Of a DNA stretch of 64,000 bases, positions 18,901-52,817 are shown piece after piece. This DNA is from Bifidobacterium pseudolongum subsp. pseudolongum DSM 20099. Lineage in GTDB: Bacteria; Actinomycetota; Actinomycetes; Actinomycetales; Bifidobacteriaceae. Under the pieces are notes generated by a model. It was given only the letters and a program-made list of their open reading frames with translations. It did not search any database and was not told where the DNA came from. The stretch is taken from contig NZ_JDTZ01000003.1 of the NCBI RefSeq assembly GCF_000771225.1, positions 62,001 through 126,000 on the forward strand. The letters are read 5' to 3'. Made by a program: the position numbers and the translations under genes. Within the stretch, counting starts at the first letter, position 1. The number at the start of each line of letters is the position of its first letter.

Positions 18901-19353
18901 ATGGGATCCGCAGCACGTTCCACACGTTCGAATGCGGCGCCGGCTGGGCGCCAAAGCCACGAGGCGCGCAGCGCACAGCGTCCGCAACTGCATGTGGTGT
19001 CGAACCGCAGCGCCAGCGGGGCCGCGAAACGCGGGGTGGCGGCGTTCTGGGAGTGGACCAAATCACGGTCCACGCCGCTTGTGCACATTGTGGTGGCGGT
19101 TGTGTTCCTCGGCGCCTGCCTGCTGGGGGCGCTGCTGCTGCGCACACAGATGAGCTCCAACTCGTTCGAGGCTTCGCGCATCGAACAGCACATCACGATG
19201 CTGCAGCAGGATGTGGAAGACGACCAGGCCAAACTCGCGCAATTGGAAGCCACGTTGCCTGAGCGCGCGCAGAAGATGAACATGGAACCCGCCAAGGGTT
19301 CGCTGTCGATTGACCTGCAGGGATACCAGCCCGCCGGGGAAGGGGCACACTGA
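18901..19353 (+). CDS. ftsL: FtsL-like divisome protein
   Basis: A 150-residue bitopic protein: a basic, Ala/Arg/Ser-rich cytosolic N-terminus (about 1-58), one transmembrane helix (about 60-80), and a periplasmic coiled coil (about 88-120). FtsL sequences are poorly conserved; the identification rests on topology and on position between rsmH and ftsI. It forms a complex with FtsQ and FtsB to activate FtsW-FtsI. Its TGA overlaps the ftsI ATG by four bases (ATGA). Confidence 0.85.
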   Translation: MGSAARSTRSNAAPAGRQSHEARSAQRPQLHVVSNRSASGAAKRGVAAFWEWTKSRSTPLVHIVVAVVFLGACLLGALLLRTQMSSNSFEASRIEQHITMLQQDVEDDQAKLAQLEATLPERAQKMNMEPAKGSLSIDLQGYQPAGEGAH

Positions 19354-21149
19354 TGCGTTCATTCTCGTGGTCCCGACTGTCCCGGCGTGTCAGGCAAGCC
19401 TCGGTCATGGGCATCGTCATGTCGCTTGTGGCACTGCTGTGCATCGGGCAATTGGTGCGCATCCAATTGATCGACGGCGCGAGCACCGCCCAGGCCGCCA
19501 CGCAGAACCGCACAGTCAAAGCATCGCTGAGCGCCAAGCGCGGCAAGATCACCGATACGAACGGTGCGGTGCTCGCGCAAAGCGTGGAGCGCTACACAAT
19601 CGTCGGCAATCCACAGGCGGCACAGGATTTCGAACCCACCACCTGCACCACGCGCACAAGAGACTACTGCCACGCGCTCGATGGCAAGCCGCTGCAGACA
19701 ACCGGCGCGGCCGCTGTGGCGCAATTGCTCGCACCGGTGCTCGGCATGAACGCGGCCGAGCTCGGTGGCAGGCTTTCGGGCACTGGCCAGTACGCGATTC
19801 TCAAAAAAGACGTGACCCCCGAAGTCAAGCGTAAAATCGCCGACCTGCATCTCGGCGGCATTGTGTACGGCGAACTGAGCAACGAGCGCATCTACACGAA
19901 CGGCACGCTCATGGGTGCGCTGCTCGGCGGTGTGGACGACGAAGGCAAGGGCGTGGCCGGCATCGAGCAAATCGAGGACAAGACGCTGACCGGCACCGAC
20001 GGCTACCAGATCTACCAGCAGGGCAACGGAGGCGAAGAGATCCCCGGCACGATGACCGATTCGAAAGCGGCAGTGGACGGCGCGGACGTACAGCTGACGA
20101 TCGACCGCGACATCCAGTGGCGTGTGGAACAGATCCTCAAGGACAGCCAAGCGAAATACAAGGCGGCGTGGGGCATCGCCGTGGTGCAGGACGTGCAGAG
20201 CGGGCAGATCCTGGCGCTCGCCGACACCGACCAGATCGAAGCCGGCAGCGACGACGCCAAACTCAATGTGGCGCGCTCGGTGAGCCAGACCTTCGAACCG
20301 GGTTCCGTGGGCAAGGTCTTCACCATGTCGGGGCTCGTGCAGGAACATCTGCACCAGATGTCCGACAAATTCACTGTGCCCGATTCACTGACGCTCGACG
20401 GGCAGACCTACAAGGATTCGTTCAACCACGGTGCAGAGCATTGGACACTCGCCGGCGTGCTCGAACAATCCTCGAACATCGGCACAATCCTCGCCTCTGA
20501 CTCGTTTTCGGACCAGAAACGCTACGAGTACCTGACCAAGTTCGGCATCGGCCAGCCAAGTGGCCTCAATCTGCCGGGCGAATCGCAGGGCCTGCTCACC
20601 CAGCCGCAGACATGGGACGGCCGTACGCGCAACACCGTGCTCTTCGGGCAGGGGTACACCGTCAATGCGCTGCAGATGACGAACGCGATTGCGGTCATCG
20701 CCAACCAAGGCGTGCTCAAGCCGCAGTCGATCATCAAAGCCATCACCACCCCCGACGGCAAAAGCGCCACGCCCGAACAGAAGGAATCCACGCGTGTGAT
20801 TGACGAAGAGGCCTCCAAGCAGATCCTCAACGCCATGGAATCCGTGTCCGAACACTATTCCTCGCAAGGATTCGCCGGAGTGAAGGGCTACCGTGTGGCC
20901 TCCAAGTCCGGTACCGCCGAAGTGGCCGGCCCCGACGGCAAGCTAAGTTCGCTCATCAGCGATTACTCCGCGATCATCCCCGCCGACAACCCCCGCTTCG
21001 TGGTGACGGTGGTGCTCAAGGACCCAGAAGGCAGCTATGGTGGTCTGACGGCGGGCCCGGTGTTCGCGCAGATCGGCGAATTCCTGATGCAGAAATACGA
21101 AGTGCCGAACTCCCCACAACGCAAGAACGCGATTCCGGTGGAATGGTGA
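19353..21149 (+). CDS. ftsI: FtsI, septal peptidoglycan transpeptidase (PBP3)
   Basis: A 598-residue class B penicillin-binding protein. A transmembrane helix (about 19-40) is followed by a pedestal domain and the transpeptidase domain with all three catalytic motifs: SVGK near 317, SSN near 373 and KSG near 517. It cross-links septal peptidoglycan with FtsW. Two cysteines in the pedestal (TTCTTRTRDYC, about 93-103) may form a disulphide. It is translationally coupled to ftsL by overlap. Confidence 0.95.
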   Translation: MRSFSWSRLSRRVRQASVMGIVMSLVALLCIGQLVRIQLIDGASTAQAATQNRTVKASLSAKRGKITDTNGAVLAQSVERYTIVGNPQAAQDFEPTTCTTRTRDYCHALDGKPLQTTGAAAVAQLLAPVLGMNAAELGGRLSGTGQYAILKKDVTPEVKRKIADLHLGGIVYGELSNERIYTNGTLMGALLGGVDDEGKGVAGIEQIEDKTLTGTDGYQIYQQGNGGEEIPGTMTDSKAAVDGADVQLTIDRDIQWRVEQILKDSQAKYKAAWGIAVVQDVQSGQILALADTDQIEAGSDDAKLNVARSVSQTFEPGSVGKVFTMSGLVQEHLHQMSDKFTVPDSLTLDGQTYKDSFNHGAEHWTLAGVLEQSSNIGTILASDSFSDQKRYEYLTKFGIGQPSGLNLPGESQGLLTQPQTWDGRTRNTVLFGQGYTVNALQMTNAIAVIANQGVLKPQSIIKAITTPDGKSATPEQKESTRVIDEEASKQILNAMESVSEHYSSQGFAGVKGYRVASKSGTAEVAGPDGKLSSLISDYSAIIPADNPRFVVTVVLKDPEGSYGGLTAGPVFAQIGEFLMQKYEVPNSPQRKNAIPVEW

Positions 21150-21189
21150 ACGAACAGCAGACGACGACTATCCGACAAGAGGAGCAACG

Positions 21190-22071
21190 ATGAGCGCAAT
21201 CAGTGAAACGACGGCACAGCGGCTGACGCTGGGCATGCTCGAGGACCGTTACGGATTCTCTCTCGTGCCCGGCTTCGCGCGTGATGTGACCGTGACGTCG
21301 CTCGCCAACGACGTGGACTCGGTGACGCCCGGCGCGCTGTTCATCCCCGGTGAGCGCATCGAGAAAGCGCGCGTGGCGCTCGCCGTGCAACGCGGCGCCT
21401 ACGCGATGCTGCTGCCCACATCCATGCGCAATGCGATCGACGACCAGCAGATCCCGATCCTGTTCGCCGATCCCACGCCGCGGCAGATCGGTGAACTCGC
21501 CGCGAGCATCGCCGGTATGCCTTCGGAATCGATCGCCGTCTTCGCGGTCGCAGGCGCCGGCAACGAGCGTCTGCGCGAAGACGTGGATGCGATCGCGCAG
21601 TTCCTGCATATGCTCGGCAACCCGGTGGGCACCGTCTGCAAAGGCGATTCGCAGTCGCTCGAACGGTTCCTCGACCTGACCTACCCGGTCGACGCCTTTT
21701 CGGTGCAGCGCGTACTGTCGGTGTGTGTGGAAGACGGTGTGGCAGCGGTCATCATCGCGCTCGACGACGAGACACTCGCCTCCGGTTCGCTCGAAAGCGT
21801 GGGGGTCGACGTGATCGGCGTCGACGGCGAGGAGGCTGACGCGGATATCGAGCAGGCGCTCGCACAGGTGCGCGAACGGTACGGCTGCGTGATGGACGAC
21901 AACACGCATGTGGCCGTGCGCACCGATGAGACCGATATGATGGCGATCCAGGCCGACTTGGGCACCGGCCCATCACGCCCGCTTTCACTCGCCATCGCGA
22001 TGGTGCTCGCGGCCGGCATCCGCAAAAGCAGCATCCGCAGCGCGTTGCGCGTGTCGAGAGAACTGAACTGA
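21190..22071 (+). CDS. MurE-like pseudoenzyme in the dcw cluster
   Basis: A 293-residue protein with the N-terminal UDP-MurNAc-binding-like domain of MurE (SLANDVDSVTPGALFIPG, about 38-55) and a shortened central region. Where Mur ligases have the P-loop G-T-N-G-K-T-T, this protein reads AGAGNERL (about 121-128), so the ATP-binding lysine and threonines are gone. The length is about 60% of MurE, and the C-terminal ligase domain is absent or vestigial. It occupies the usual murE position between ftsI and murF. A complete MurE is encoded at 51285-52817. A structural or regulatory role is possible, but function is unknown. The ATG at 21190 has AAGAGGAG upstream. Confidence 0.8.
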   Translation: MSAISETTAQRLTLGMLEDRYGFSLVPGFARDVTVTSLANDVDSVTPGALFIPGERIEKARVALAVQRGAYAMLLPTSMRNAIDDQQIPILFADPTPRQIGELAASIAGMPSESIAVFAVAGAGNERLREDVDAIAQFLHMLGNPVGTVCKGDSQSLERFLDLTYPVDAFSVQRVLSVCVEDGVAAVIIALDDETLASGSLESVGVDVIGVDGEEADADIEQALAQVRERYGCVMDDNTHVAVRTDETDMMAIQADLGTGPSRPLSLAIAMVLAAGIRKSSIRSALRVSRELN

Positions 22072-22110: not shown

Positions 22111-23589
22111 ATGATGAAGATGACGTTGCGGCAGGTCATGGCCAGTGTGGACGGCCATGCAGCGCCCGGTGCCGTCATGGACGAAGGGACTGAAGTCACC
22201 TCGGCCGTAACCGATTCGCGTCTCGCGCAGTCCGGCTCGCTGTTCGTGGCGATCGCAGGCGAGCACGTGGACGGCCATGATTACGTGGACGCGGCCGCGC
22301 GCAACGGCGCTGTGGCCGCGCTCGTACAGCACGCCGTGCCGGACGCGGGCATCGCGCAGATCATCGTGGAAGACGGTGTGGCCGCGTTGGGTGAGCTCGC
22401 CAAGGCGAACCTGCGGATGCGCCGCAATGGGGCCGCCCCCTTCACGATCATCGGCATCACCGGTTCGGTGGGCAAGACGACGACGAAGGACCTGTTGAAG
22501 GCGCTGCTCTCCACGCTTGGCGAGACCGTGGCGCCGGTCGGTTCGTTCAACAACGAGATCGGGCTACCGCTCACCGCGCTTGAAGTGGGGGAAGGCACCC
22601 GCTATCTGGTGGCGGAGATGGGCGCCAACCACCTTGGGGAGATCGCTCATCTGACCACAATCGCGCCGCCCGACATCGCGATCGTGCTGAAGGTGGGCGT
22701 GGCTCATCTGGGTGAATTCGGATCGGTCGAGCATATCGCACAGGCGAAAAGCGAGATTGTGCGCGGGTTGCTCAACGACGGCGTGACGGTGCTCAACGCC
22801 GACGACGCCCGCGTGGCCCGCATGCAAGACATCGCGCCGGGCAAAGTGGTGTGGTTCGGCATCGAGCATGCGCAGGCGCATGAATGCGACAGCTATGTGG
22901 CCGCGGACGACATCAGCCTCGACGATCTGGGGCACCCGGTGTTCACGCTCGTCAGCGAAGCCGGTGTGGAACAGCGTGTGAAACTCGGCATCACGGGACG
23001 GCACAACATCATGAATGCCCTCGCCGCCGCAAGTGTGGCGCGCTTGGAGGGCATGCCACTCGAGCACATCGCCGCCGTGCTCAATTCGGTGCATGCCATC
23101 AGCGCGCACCGCATGGCCGTAAGCGTGGTGCAGGAAGGCGATGTGCGGTTCACGCTCATCGACGATTCGTTCAACGCGAACCCTGATTCGATGCGAGCCG
23201 GCATCGACGGCATGATGTCCTGGCATGCCGGCGACGCCACGCAACCCACCCGTGTGGCGGTGCTCGGCGCCATGCTCGAACTCGGCGGTGACGAGACGCG
23301 GGCCCACCATGACATCGGCATCTACGCCGCCCAGAGTGGCGCCGACGTGGTCATCGCGGTAGGTGGGGGGAATGACCCGCACCTCAATGCACTGGCCCGC
23401 GACCTCGCCGACGGCGCGCGCACCGCGATGGACGCAGACGCCGTGTTCTGCGTGGACACCACCGACGAGGCCGACGGCATCGTGCGCGACCTGGGCCGCA
23501 CGCATGCGGACATGGTCGTGCTGCTCAAAGGGTCGCATGCCTCGGGCCTGAGCTCACTTGCCACCCGATGGAACGAGGAACGCGCGTAA
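22111..23589 (+). CDS. murF: UDP-N-acetylmuramoyl-tripeptide--D-alanyl-D-alanine ligase
   Basis: A 492-residue Mur ligase that adds D-Ala-D-Ala to UDP-MurNAc-tripeptide. The P-loop GITGSVGKTTTKD is near 114-126, MGANHLGEI near 170 is the MurF-type carbamate-lysine region, and IDDSFNANPDSMRAG near 350 is the C-terminal domain signature. The start is at 22111 or 22114 (two adjacent ATGs) behind AAGGAG. No ddl gene is present in the cluster, so D-Ala-D-Ala must come from an unlinked gene. Confidence 0.95.
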   Translation: MMKMTLRQVMASVDGHAAPGAVMDEGTEVTSAVTDSRLAQSGSLFVAIAGEHVDGHDYVDAAARNGAVAALVQHAVPDAGIAQIIVEDGVAALGELAKANLRMRRNGAAPFTIIGITGSVGKTTTKDLLKALLSTLGETVAPVGSFNNEIGLPLTALEVGEGTRYLVAEMGANHLGEIAHLTTIAPPDIAIVLKVGVAHLGEFGSVEHIAQAKSEIVRGLLNDGVTVLNADDARVARMQDIAPGKVVWFGIEHAQAHECDSYVAADDISLDDLGHPVFTLVSEAGVEQRVKLGITGRHNIMNALAAASVARLEGMPLEHIAAVLNSVHAISAHRMAVSVVQEGDVRFTLIDDSFNANPDSMRAGIDGMMSWHAGDATQPTRVAVLGAMLELGGDETRAHHDIGIYAAQSGADVVIAVGGGNDPHLNALARDLADGARTAMDADAVFCVDTTDEADGIVRDLGRTHADMVVLLKGSHASGLSSLATRWNEERA

Positions 23590-50199: not shown

Positions 50200-51267
50200 T
50201 TACTTGGCAGGGTCCGCCGGCTGCTGTTTGGTAGGAGACGGCTTGGCCGGGGCGGCCTTCGTCTTTTTCTTCGGCTTGAGCGCATGGCGTACGTTCTGCA
50301 GCATGCGCAACATGGCGTAGAACGCCTTCTTGATAGGGATATCGCGGCCTGCGGCGATCGTCACGGTGTCGGGGGCGAACTTTGTCTTGAAGTCGTTGAG
50401 CGATTTGAGGGAAGGCGCGAAATCGTTGCCGATGCCCATGAGGTCAAGCTTCTCGTACCCCTCCTGGCCCAAGGTGCAGGCCGCGAAGTAGAGCAGTTTG
50501 TCCGGCACATGCTGGCGGCGCACCGAGGTGAGCATGGACGCGTAGTAGTATACGGCGCTCTTGCCGTGGGTCGTCATGATGGTCCATGCCACGACCTTGC
50601 CGTCGATGCGCGCGGCGAACACGCGGCAATGATCCGGCCCAAGCGCCTTGATCATGTCGGTGTAATCGCTCATGGGTGCGGGTGTGAAGCCGTCGCGCTT
50701 GGCGGTCTCGACCATCACCGCGTAGTAATCGGTGAAGTCCTGTGTTGCTTGCGTGGTCTCATCCGCGACCTCGGCCGGGCTCTCACGCAGCGCTTTGCGC
50801 ACATCGCGCCTGCCTCGCTTCTTCATGCGCGCAAGCAGTGCCTCATCGCCGCCGGTGATGTCAAGCACCACGGTCTCGTTGTACGGCACGGTGGAGAGCA
50901 CGGGGGAGGTGCCCTTGTCCGTCCACGTATCGATGCGCAGGAACGCCACATGCTTGTCGTGCAGTTTCACAAAGTCGGCGAGCGCCTGGATCACCGCCTG
51001 CTCCTGTGCCTCGCTCGGCTTGGTCTTCCATGCCGGGCCGTGCACGGAGCGCAGGTAATGGTAGCCGTGTGTCTCCATGTCGATCAGCGAAATGACCGCC
51101 ACAAGCGTGTCGTTGTCTCGGATGAGCAGGCTGCCCCACGGTGCGCGCCCGGCCACGCCGGATTGGAAATCAGCCCATACGGCGGTCTGTTCAATCGGCA
51201 GGTCGATGCCGTTGGCCGCCGCTTCCTTTTCCAGCGTCTGCGGCGTCACGCGTTCGATCGTAATCAT
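50200..51267 (-). CDS. FemABX-family lipid II aminoacyltransferase
   Basis: A 355-residue tRNA-dependent transferase with two GNAT-like halves. Signatures: PIEQTAVWADFQSG (about 26-39), the SVHGPAW motif (about 79-85) and YYYASMLTSVRR with LMGIGNDF (about 225-270). FemABX enzymes attach cross-bridge amino acids to the lysine or ornithine side chain of lipid II. It is next to murE and overlaps or abuts its stop, so both act on the third residue of the stem. The start at 51267 has GGAAGGA; ATGs at 51270 and 51288 (the latter overlapping the murE stop) are alternatives. The tail is Lys/Pro/Ala-rich. Confidence 0.88.
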   Translation of the reverse strand: MITIERVTPQTLEKEAAANGIDLPIEQTAVWADFQSGVAGRAPWGSLLIRDNDTLVAVISLIDMETHGYHYLRSVHGPAWKTKPSEAQEQAVIQALADFVKLHDKHVAFLRIDTWTDKGTSPVLSTVPYNETVVLDITGGDEALLARMKKRGRRDVRKALRESPAEVADETTQATQDFTDYYAVMVETAKRDGFTPAPMSDYTDMIKALGPDHCRVFAARIDGKVVAWTIMTTHGKSAVYYYASMLTSVRRQHVPDKLLYFAACTLGQEGYEKLDLMGIGNDFAPSLKSLNDFKTKFAPDTVTIAAGRDIPIKKAFYAMLRMLQNVRHALKPKKKTKAAPAKPSPTKQQPADPAK

Positions 51268-51284
51268 CATGTTCCTTCCGGTTG

Positions 51285-52817
51285 TCATGCGAAGAGTCGG
51301 CGGATGATCTGTTCATCGCCTTCATACGGCACGTGTTTGTTGAGCACTTTGATCCATTGTTCGTCGCCTTTGCCGATGATCAGCAGCACGTCGAATCCTT
51401 CGCGCGCCCTTGCCGCGTCGACCGCCATCTGTAAGGCGGTGGGGCGGTCGAGCTCGATGATGCGCTCCACATGCGGGTCGGTCACGTAGTTGTACATCTG
51501 CGCGCAGATGTCTTCGAACGGTTCGGTGTCGGAGTCCTCCTGCGTGAGGATGATCGTCTGCACGCGGTGTTGCGCGGCGTCGATGATTTCTTTGCGCCGG
51601 TCGATCGCCTTGTTGCCGGCCGATCCGGTGATGAGCGTGATGTGCGGATGCTGGTCGCCGTACCGCTGCTCCACATAGTCGAGCAGCGCGTTCACCGAGG
51701 CGTAGTTGTGTGCGTAATCGACGATCGCGAGGGTGTTCGACTGTGAGTCGTGCGTCTCCTCCATACGTCCTGAGATGCGCACATCGCGCATGGAGTCGAG
51801 CACGCGCGGGTCGGAGACATCGACGCCCACGGCGTGTGCGAGCGCGATCGCGGCGGCGGCGTTCGCGTAGTTGAAGTCGCCGTTGATCGCGAGCGAAAGA
51901 TCGCCGAGCGGCTGGCCGCCTGCGCGCATGGCGAACGCAGTGTGCTGCGCGTTCGCCGGCGTGGCGGTGACGTCGGCGGCTGGGTCGGTCAGTGAGAATG
52001 TGGTGACGGGGATCTGCGCGAGTGCGGCGTCCTGTTCGATGAGCGGCGCGAAGTCGCCAGGCACGCCGAGCACGAGCGCGTCGGCGTTGGCGACGATCCG
52101 GCGTTTGCAATACAGGTAATCCTCGAATGTGGGGTGTTCGATGGGGCTGATGTGGTCGGGGGAGATGTTGAGGAACGCTGCGGCGTCGAAGTTGAGGCCG
52201 TAGACGCGGTTGACTTTGTACGCCTGCGACGAGACCTCCATCACCAGGTACTGCATGCCGTACGAGACCGCTTTGCGCATCATGCGGATCGCGTCGAGCG
52301 ATTCCGGGGTGGTCAGGTCGGACTCGTGGTAGTGCTCGCCGTCGAGGCAGTTGTCGACCGAAGAGAACAGCGCCGCCTTGCCGCCCGAGACGGCGTTGAG
52401 GATGGCGTGCGTCAGGTAGGCGGTCGTGGTCTTGCCTTTCGTGCCGGTGATGCCGATGAGCGTGAGCTCGTCCTGCGGATAGTCGTAGAAGGCCTGGGCG
52501 AGCAGGCTCAGCGCCTGGCTCGCGTTGTTGACAATCAGTCCGGGGGCCTGCGTGTAGTCACTGTAATCGTGCTCGGCCACGTAGGCGGCCATGCCCAGCT
52601 CGTCGGCGTGCTTGAGGTATTCGGGTTTGAACCGGCCCTTGCAGCACATGATCGCACCGTTGACGATGTGCTGGGTGCTGTAGGTGATCGCGGTGAACTC
52701 CTTGCCGGAGCCCTCCACGGTGACAGGATTCATCGTCCATTGGTCCGGGGTGATGATCTCCCTGAGCAGATGGTGCTCGTTCAGCAGTATTGCGGCCGAT
52801 TGCAATGTCAACGTCAT
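51285..52817 (-). CDS. murE: UDP-MurNAc-L-Ala-D-Glu ligase for the third residue (MurE, Lys/Orn type)
   Basis: A 510-residue complete Mur ligase: N-terminal domain, P-loop GITGTKGKTTTAY (about 121-133), MEVSSQAYKVNRV (about 195-207) and C-terminal domain with DYAHNYAS (about 370). The amino-acid specificity loop, DNPR in diaminopimelate-adding enzymes, here reads EDSDTEPF (about 445), which points to a basic amino acid such as L-Lys or L-Orn, not meso-diaminopimelate. It compensates for the inactive MurE-like protein in the dcw cluster. It lies in an operon with femX; the start is at 52817. Confidence 0.93.
   Translation of the reverse strand: MTLTLQSAAILLNEHHLLREIITPDQWTMNPVTVEGSGKEFTAITYSTQHIVNGAIMCCKGRFKPEYLKHADELGMAAYVAEHDYSDYTQAPGLIVNNASQALSLLAQAFYDYPQDELTLIGITGTKGKTTTAYLTHAILNAVSGGKAALFSSVDNCLDGEHYHESDLTTPESLDAIRMMRKAVSYGMQYLVMEVSSQAYKVNRVYGLNFDAAAFLNISPDHISPIEHPTFEDYLYCKRRIVANADALVLGVPGDFAPLIEQDAALAQIPVTTFSLTDPAADVTATPANAQHTAFAMRAGGQPLGDLSLAINGDFNYANAAAAIALAHAVGVDVSDPRVLDSMRDVRISGRMEETHDSQSNTLAIVDYAHNYASVNALLDYVEQRYGDQHPHITLITGSAGNKAIDRRKEIIDAAQHRVQTIILTQEDSDTEPFEDICAQMYNYVTDPHVERIIELDRPTALQMAVDAARAREGFDVLLIIGKGDEQWIKVLNKHVPYEGDEQIIRRLFA

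Follow-up and report, generated by a model that had tools for sequence, protein, structure and literature searches.

In the dcw cluster of Bifidobacterium pseudolongum subsp. pseudolongum DSM 20099, a gene flanked by ftsI and murF encodes a protein, called here pME (pseudo-MurE), which descends from MurE, has lost the ATP-binding, catalytic and C-terminal parts of that enzyme, and is under purifying selection. The explanation we favour, to which as a whole we give a probability of about one half, is that pME is a pseudoenzyme, derived from MurE and strictly retained, whose task is that of a protein-interaction adaptor in the divisome. The window (i.e., the whole stretch of 64,000 nucleotides analysed) also holds, some 30 kb from the dcw slot, a genuine MurE that was overlooked in the preliminary description of this DNA, and its presence makes clear how catalysis could be dispensed with in the dcw copy.

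Table 1. Features of the pME locus, of the pME protein and of the genuine MurE locus (positions are those of the window).
Feature	Position	Strand	Remarks
ftsI (penicillin-binding transpeptidase)	19353..21149	+	upstream neighbour of pME in 110/110 loci
Shine-Dalgarno-like AAGAGGAG	21177..21184	+	5′ of the pME ATG, read in the sequence
pME (pseudo-MurE) gene	21190..22071	+	intact ORF, ATG start, 293 aa
N-domain, MurE-like fold, residues 12-110	21223..21519	+	its uracil-binding loop (residues 54-61) has degenerated
Middle-domain Rossmann-like core, residues 111-212	21520..21825	+	AF2 model, PDB fold match to MurE
Former P-loop AGAGNERL, residues 121-128	21550..21573	+	GxxGK[TS] absent in 110/110 homologues
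FLHMLGNPVG, residues 138-147	21601..21630	+	strongly conserved; face opposite the old active site, by topology
EDG, residues 181-183	21730..21738	+	invariant; same face as FLHMLGNPVG, opposite the old active site, by topology
Hypervariable linker, residues 213-230	21826..21879	+	reaches >100 aa in certain homologues
C-terminal helical part, residues 231-293	21880..22068	+	aligns with the final helices of the MurE middle domain
murF	22111..23589	+	downstream neighbour of pME in 110/110 loci
FemAB/FemX-like protein	50200-51288	-	adjoins the genuine MurE; NCBIfam E 6e-10, 4e-6
Genuine full-length MurE, 510 aa, GITGTKGKTT	51285..52817	-	class unlike actinobacterial dcw MurE

The descent of pME from MurE is established computationally, with hhalign and Foldseek agreeing both on common descent and on the fold of the N and middle domains. 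Aligned to a profile of 20 MurE proteins from other Actinomycetales, the pME profile gives a probability of 99.2 % (E 2.4e-19, 280 columns, 24 % identity), and the alignment covers residues 40-372 of a 533-residue MurE, ending where the ligase C-domain would start. The top PDB match by sequence is Mycobacterium tuberculosis MurE (E 3.9e-8), and the NCBIfam MurE models match the N and early middle region weakly (E 2e-9 to 4e-4). No Pfam model matches pME even at E 10, nor do any match 53 diverse relatives, and PHROGs returned no significant match. The AlphaFold2 model, built from 64 sequences (pLDDT 89.5, pTM 0.87), finds as its top Foldseek matches the structures of MurE (2xja, E 2.2e-15) and of the plant PAP11/MurE-like subunit, and no fold better than MurE was found in the PDB comparison. 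The statement in the preliminary description that pME keeps the MurE N-terminal domain was thus right about that domain and too narrow, as a contracted middle domain, down to its last helix pair, is kept as well. In the homologues L060, L061 and L067, from small genomes of the genus (~1.5-1.7 Mb) that are probably Gardnerella, the linker is of low complexity and exceeds 100 residues.

What has been lost is equally clear. The ATP site, V-T-G-T-N-G-K-T-T in MurE, reads V-A-G-A-G-N-E-R-L in pME (residues 120-128), so that the replacement of the P-loop by AGAGNERL had been read exactly, and is confirmed by the profile alignment; the sole GxxGK[TS] match among 110 homologues (in L029, at residue 243) falls outside the ATP site. 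The ligase C-domain, also correctly described as missing, is absent altogether, the alignment stopping at residue 372 of 533 with no Mur_ligase_C match. The position of the catalytic Glu (MEVSS in MurE) is occupied by Ala or Ser in nearly all pME homologues and never by Glu, the DH of MurE is not kept, and the region of the carbamylated Lys is unaligned. More generally, the columns conserved in MurE that are gone from pME are the uracil-loop His-Gly, the P-loop, the TTP threonines, the MEVSS Glu/Ser, the Arg and the DH, and most of those retained are Gly, Ala, Pro and Leu with a structural role. The uracil loop, which together with the TTP and Arg columns we take, following what is generally known of MurE structures, to make up the UDP-MurNAc-dipeptide-binding residues, is among the most variable stretches of pME. 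Because neither the P-loop nor the catalytic Glu nor the substrate columns are kept, catalysis and ordinary substrate binding by pME appear, judging from its residues, very unlikely.

In spite of these losses, that the protein is both dead and selected is well supported. It is present in all 112 Bifidobacterium genomes and in 161/161 good-quality genomes of the Bifidobacteriaceae (i.e., at least 90 % complete), the order ftsI-pME-murF holds in each of the 110 genus loci read, and none of these has an internal stop in pME; therefore it is no accident of one strain, and a sequence error or a pseudogene is ruled out by the 110 intact homologues. A purine-rich ribosome site precedes the gene at the great majority of these loci (AAGAGGAG here, followed by 293 uninterrupted codons), and 27 residues are invariant across 53 diverse pME sequences. 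The pME of the window matches B. pseudolongum proteins at 94-95 % identity. Over 55 close pairs, which are not independent, the median dN/dS of pME is 0.073, at or below that of most of its neighbours (FtsI 0.0995, MurF 0.1275, RsmH 0.097, MraY 0.036). The preliminary description had pictured a clean gene with a ribosome site between ftsI and murF, and a P-loop-less pseudoenzyme derived from MurE and kept by selection, for which it proposed conservation and dN/dS across bifidobacteria among its checks and frequent frameshifts in close relatives as one refutation; both of these checks bear it out (112/112 genomes; dN/dS 0.07, vs FtsI 0.10 and MurF 0.13), and the 110 loci show no frameshift.

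The working MurE belongs to another class. The genuine enzyme of the window scores 847 bits with NF001129 and, by NCBIfam scores, comes nearer than the outgroup MurEs to the L-lysine ligase model. A MurE of this new class is encoded elsewhere in the genome in all 161 good family genomes, co-occurring with pME in every one (161/161). In outgroup Actinomycetales, on the other hand, the ftsI-murF slot holds a full-length MurE at 17 of the 20 loci read, and those tested score highest with NF001124-type models. In the MurE tree, pME forms one clade (support 100/100) on a stem of 2.1 changes per site, and the new-class MurEs form another, separate from it; the difference in class is shown by the NCBIfam scores together with the tree. 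pME thus arose once, and its long stem fits rapid change after the loss of catalysis followed by constraint. An origin of pME from the new-class MurE is not supported, as pME falls outside that clade, and the tree singles out no MurE group as its nearest. In some deep members of the family (L265, L270, L272, L273 and L274, all incomplete genomes) ftsI abuts murF without pME and MurE lies elsewhere, scoring best with NF001126/TIGR01085. These relatives, which may be the termite-symbiont lineages of PMC11707648, indicate that the role of pME is dispensable in that lineage.

Taking as the active-site side (i.e., the nucleotide/substrate side) the loops that follow the C-terminal ends of the central strands and as the opposite side those at the other ends, loop entropy in pME is 1.79 bits on the old active-site side vs 0.77 on the opposite side, the reverse of MurE (0.91 vs 1.67); the difference of differences has p 1.6e-5, with the faces assigned from strand-loop topology when the conserved motifs were already known. 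Conservation in pME has shifted away from the old active-site face and onto the one across from it. Relative evolutionary rates of 12 genes in 50 genomes single out FtsI as the top partner of pME, the covariation being modest (rho 0.32, p 0.0012, or ~0.013 corrected for 11 partners); the values for MurF, FtsW and MurE are 0.16, 0.00 and -0.04. The method has signal, since the known pairs MurC-MurD, FtsL-FtsI and FtsI-FtsW come out at or near the top. Given how modest the FtsI signal is, and that its gene is adjacent, linked evolution could contribute to it, although murF is equally adjacent. FtsW, which ranked high along with FtsI in a crude mirror-tree comparison, dropped out in the stricter branch-rate analysis, and FtsI alone was kept.

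We infer the following course of events. An ancestral actinobacterial MurE would have sat in the ftsI-murF slot, with pME as its descendant, and in the ancestor of the core Bifidobacteriaceae the ligase reaction would have passed to a MurE of a different class. From the dcw copy the P-loop, the catalytic residues, the substrate loops and the entire C-terminal domain would then have disappeared, and the remainder would have been retained for a non-catalytic role, most probably that of an adaptor in the cytoplasm docking on the machinery of septal wall synthesis, with FtsI as the best candidate partner. Contact would be made by way of the face across from the old active site, so that a role in protein interaction which the ancestral MurE already had would be preserved. 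M. tuberculosis MurE has been reported to interact with FtsZ, FtsW, FtsQ, Wag31 and SepF (PMC3605390; a correction to images in its Fig. 5 followed, PMC10965061), and this, together with the switch of faces and the covariation with FtsI, favours a divisome adaptor over a sensor of metabolites. The scaffold coupling precursor supply to division that had been suggested from the sequence is therefore plausible, and is the half of that suggestion we would keep. It is tempting to go further and see two jobs of MurE, one catalytic and one at the divisome, as split, with the chemistry left to the replacement enzyme and the former dcw copy serving as a dedicated, possibly essential, FtsI-linked adaptor between precursor synthesis and septation, but this extension is tentative and we think it rather doubtful. 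Essential-gene tables have been published for B. breve (PMC5514069).

Alternatively, pME could be a regulatory or stabilising subunit that pairs with either MurF or the new-class MurE as a heterodimer, and tunes the activity of its partner or recruits it to the dcw proteins. Its constant place next to murF and its perfect co-occurrence with the new-class MurE would fit this, as would the Bordetella MurE-MurF fusion and the different activity of MurF as monomer and dimer (PMC6420597). Rates of pME do not covary with those of MurE, however, and do so little with those of MurF, and the Mur ligases of M. tuberculosis showed no mutual interaction in one assay (PMC3605390), so we regard such a subunit as unlikely, if worth keeping in mind. 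A new ligand-binding or enzymatic function on the dead fold, unrelated to cell division, has a small chance of being right: conserved polar residues do remain on the old face (S154, S156, R159, T195) and elsewhere in the protein (H140, N144, E181, D182), whereas the strict dcw slot between ftsI and murF at every genus locus read, and the fact that MurE is still the best fold match, argue against it. The chance is slender that pME is a sensor which binds UDP-MurNAc-dipeptide, the substrate of MurE, and reports precursor supply to division, as also suggested in the preliminary description. Although the folds of the N and middle domains are retained, the sensor is disfavoured because the residues that would hold the substrate are lost (uracil-loop His-Gly, TTP threonines, catalytic Glu/Ser and the UDP-MurNAc-side Arg) and the uracil loop is highly variable. 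Finally, a decaying remnant that merely spaces murF for expression, as its derivation from a lost enzyme and its absence from the deep relatives might suggest, is largely refuted by a dN/dS below those of FtsI and MurF, 110 intact copies out of 110 and the 27 invariant residues.

Several known systems resemble the proposed adaptor in part. The canonical dcw MurE of Actinomycetales (M. tuberculosis MurE, PDB 2wtz/2xja), the top match in the PDB whether sequences or folds are compared, shares with pME the slot upstream of murF and the fold of the N and middle domains, whilst pME is without its P-loop, catalytic and substrate residues and C-terminal domain. PAP11/MurE-like of plant plastids, the second PDB match, is a MurE relative within the plastid RNA polymerase complex and so a precedent for use as a complex subunit (PMC9456514). 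Unlike pME, it is the product of a plant nuclear gene in an unrelated context, its matched chain is 768 aa long, the aligned stretch keeps GTNGKT, and its match to the genuine MurE of the window extends into the C-terminal part. The Bordetella fusion couples MurE and MurF physically and interacts with MurG (PMC6420597), but is enzymatically active in both halves. MurT, of the MurT-GatD isoglutaminyl synthase, is likewise derived from a Mur ligase with a changed role, but keeps its P-loop, has GatD as partner and belongs to a different branch of the superfamily; its gene is present in this genome, on another contig. A search of the open-access literature (subscription papers being outside its scope) found no published account of pME.

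Structural roles of Mur ligases are hard to test because the enzymes are essential. Here evolution has parted catalysis from the dcw position throughout an entire family, which means that deletion of the dead copy would directly test a non-catalytic role. The pME family, which occurs in a widely used probiotic genus and in Gardnerella, has no Pfam model, and its weak similarity to MurE invites misannotation as that enzyme.

As to the surroundings of the working enzyme, the FemAB/FemX-like protein encoded beside it is possibly an interpeptide-bridge enzyme, and the two may form a functional unit. Many Bifidobacterium genomes carry two adjacent copies of the new-class MurE (e.g., G006, C1:716190-717719 and 717802-719346), ~60 % and 51 % identical to that of the window, and others have the second type only; it is possible that the paired copies differ in the amino acid they add as third residue.
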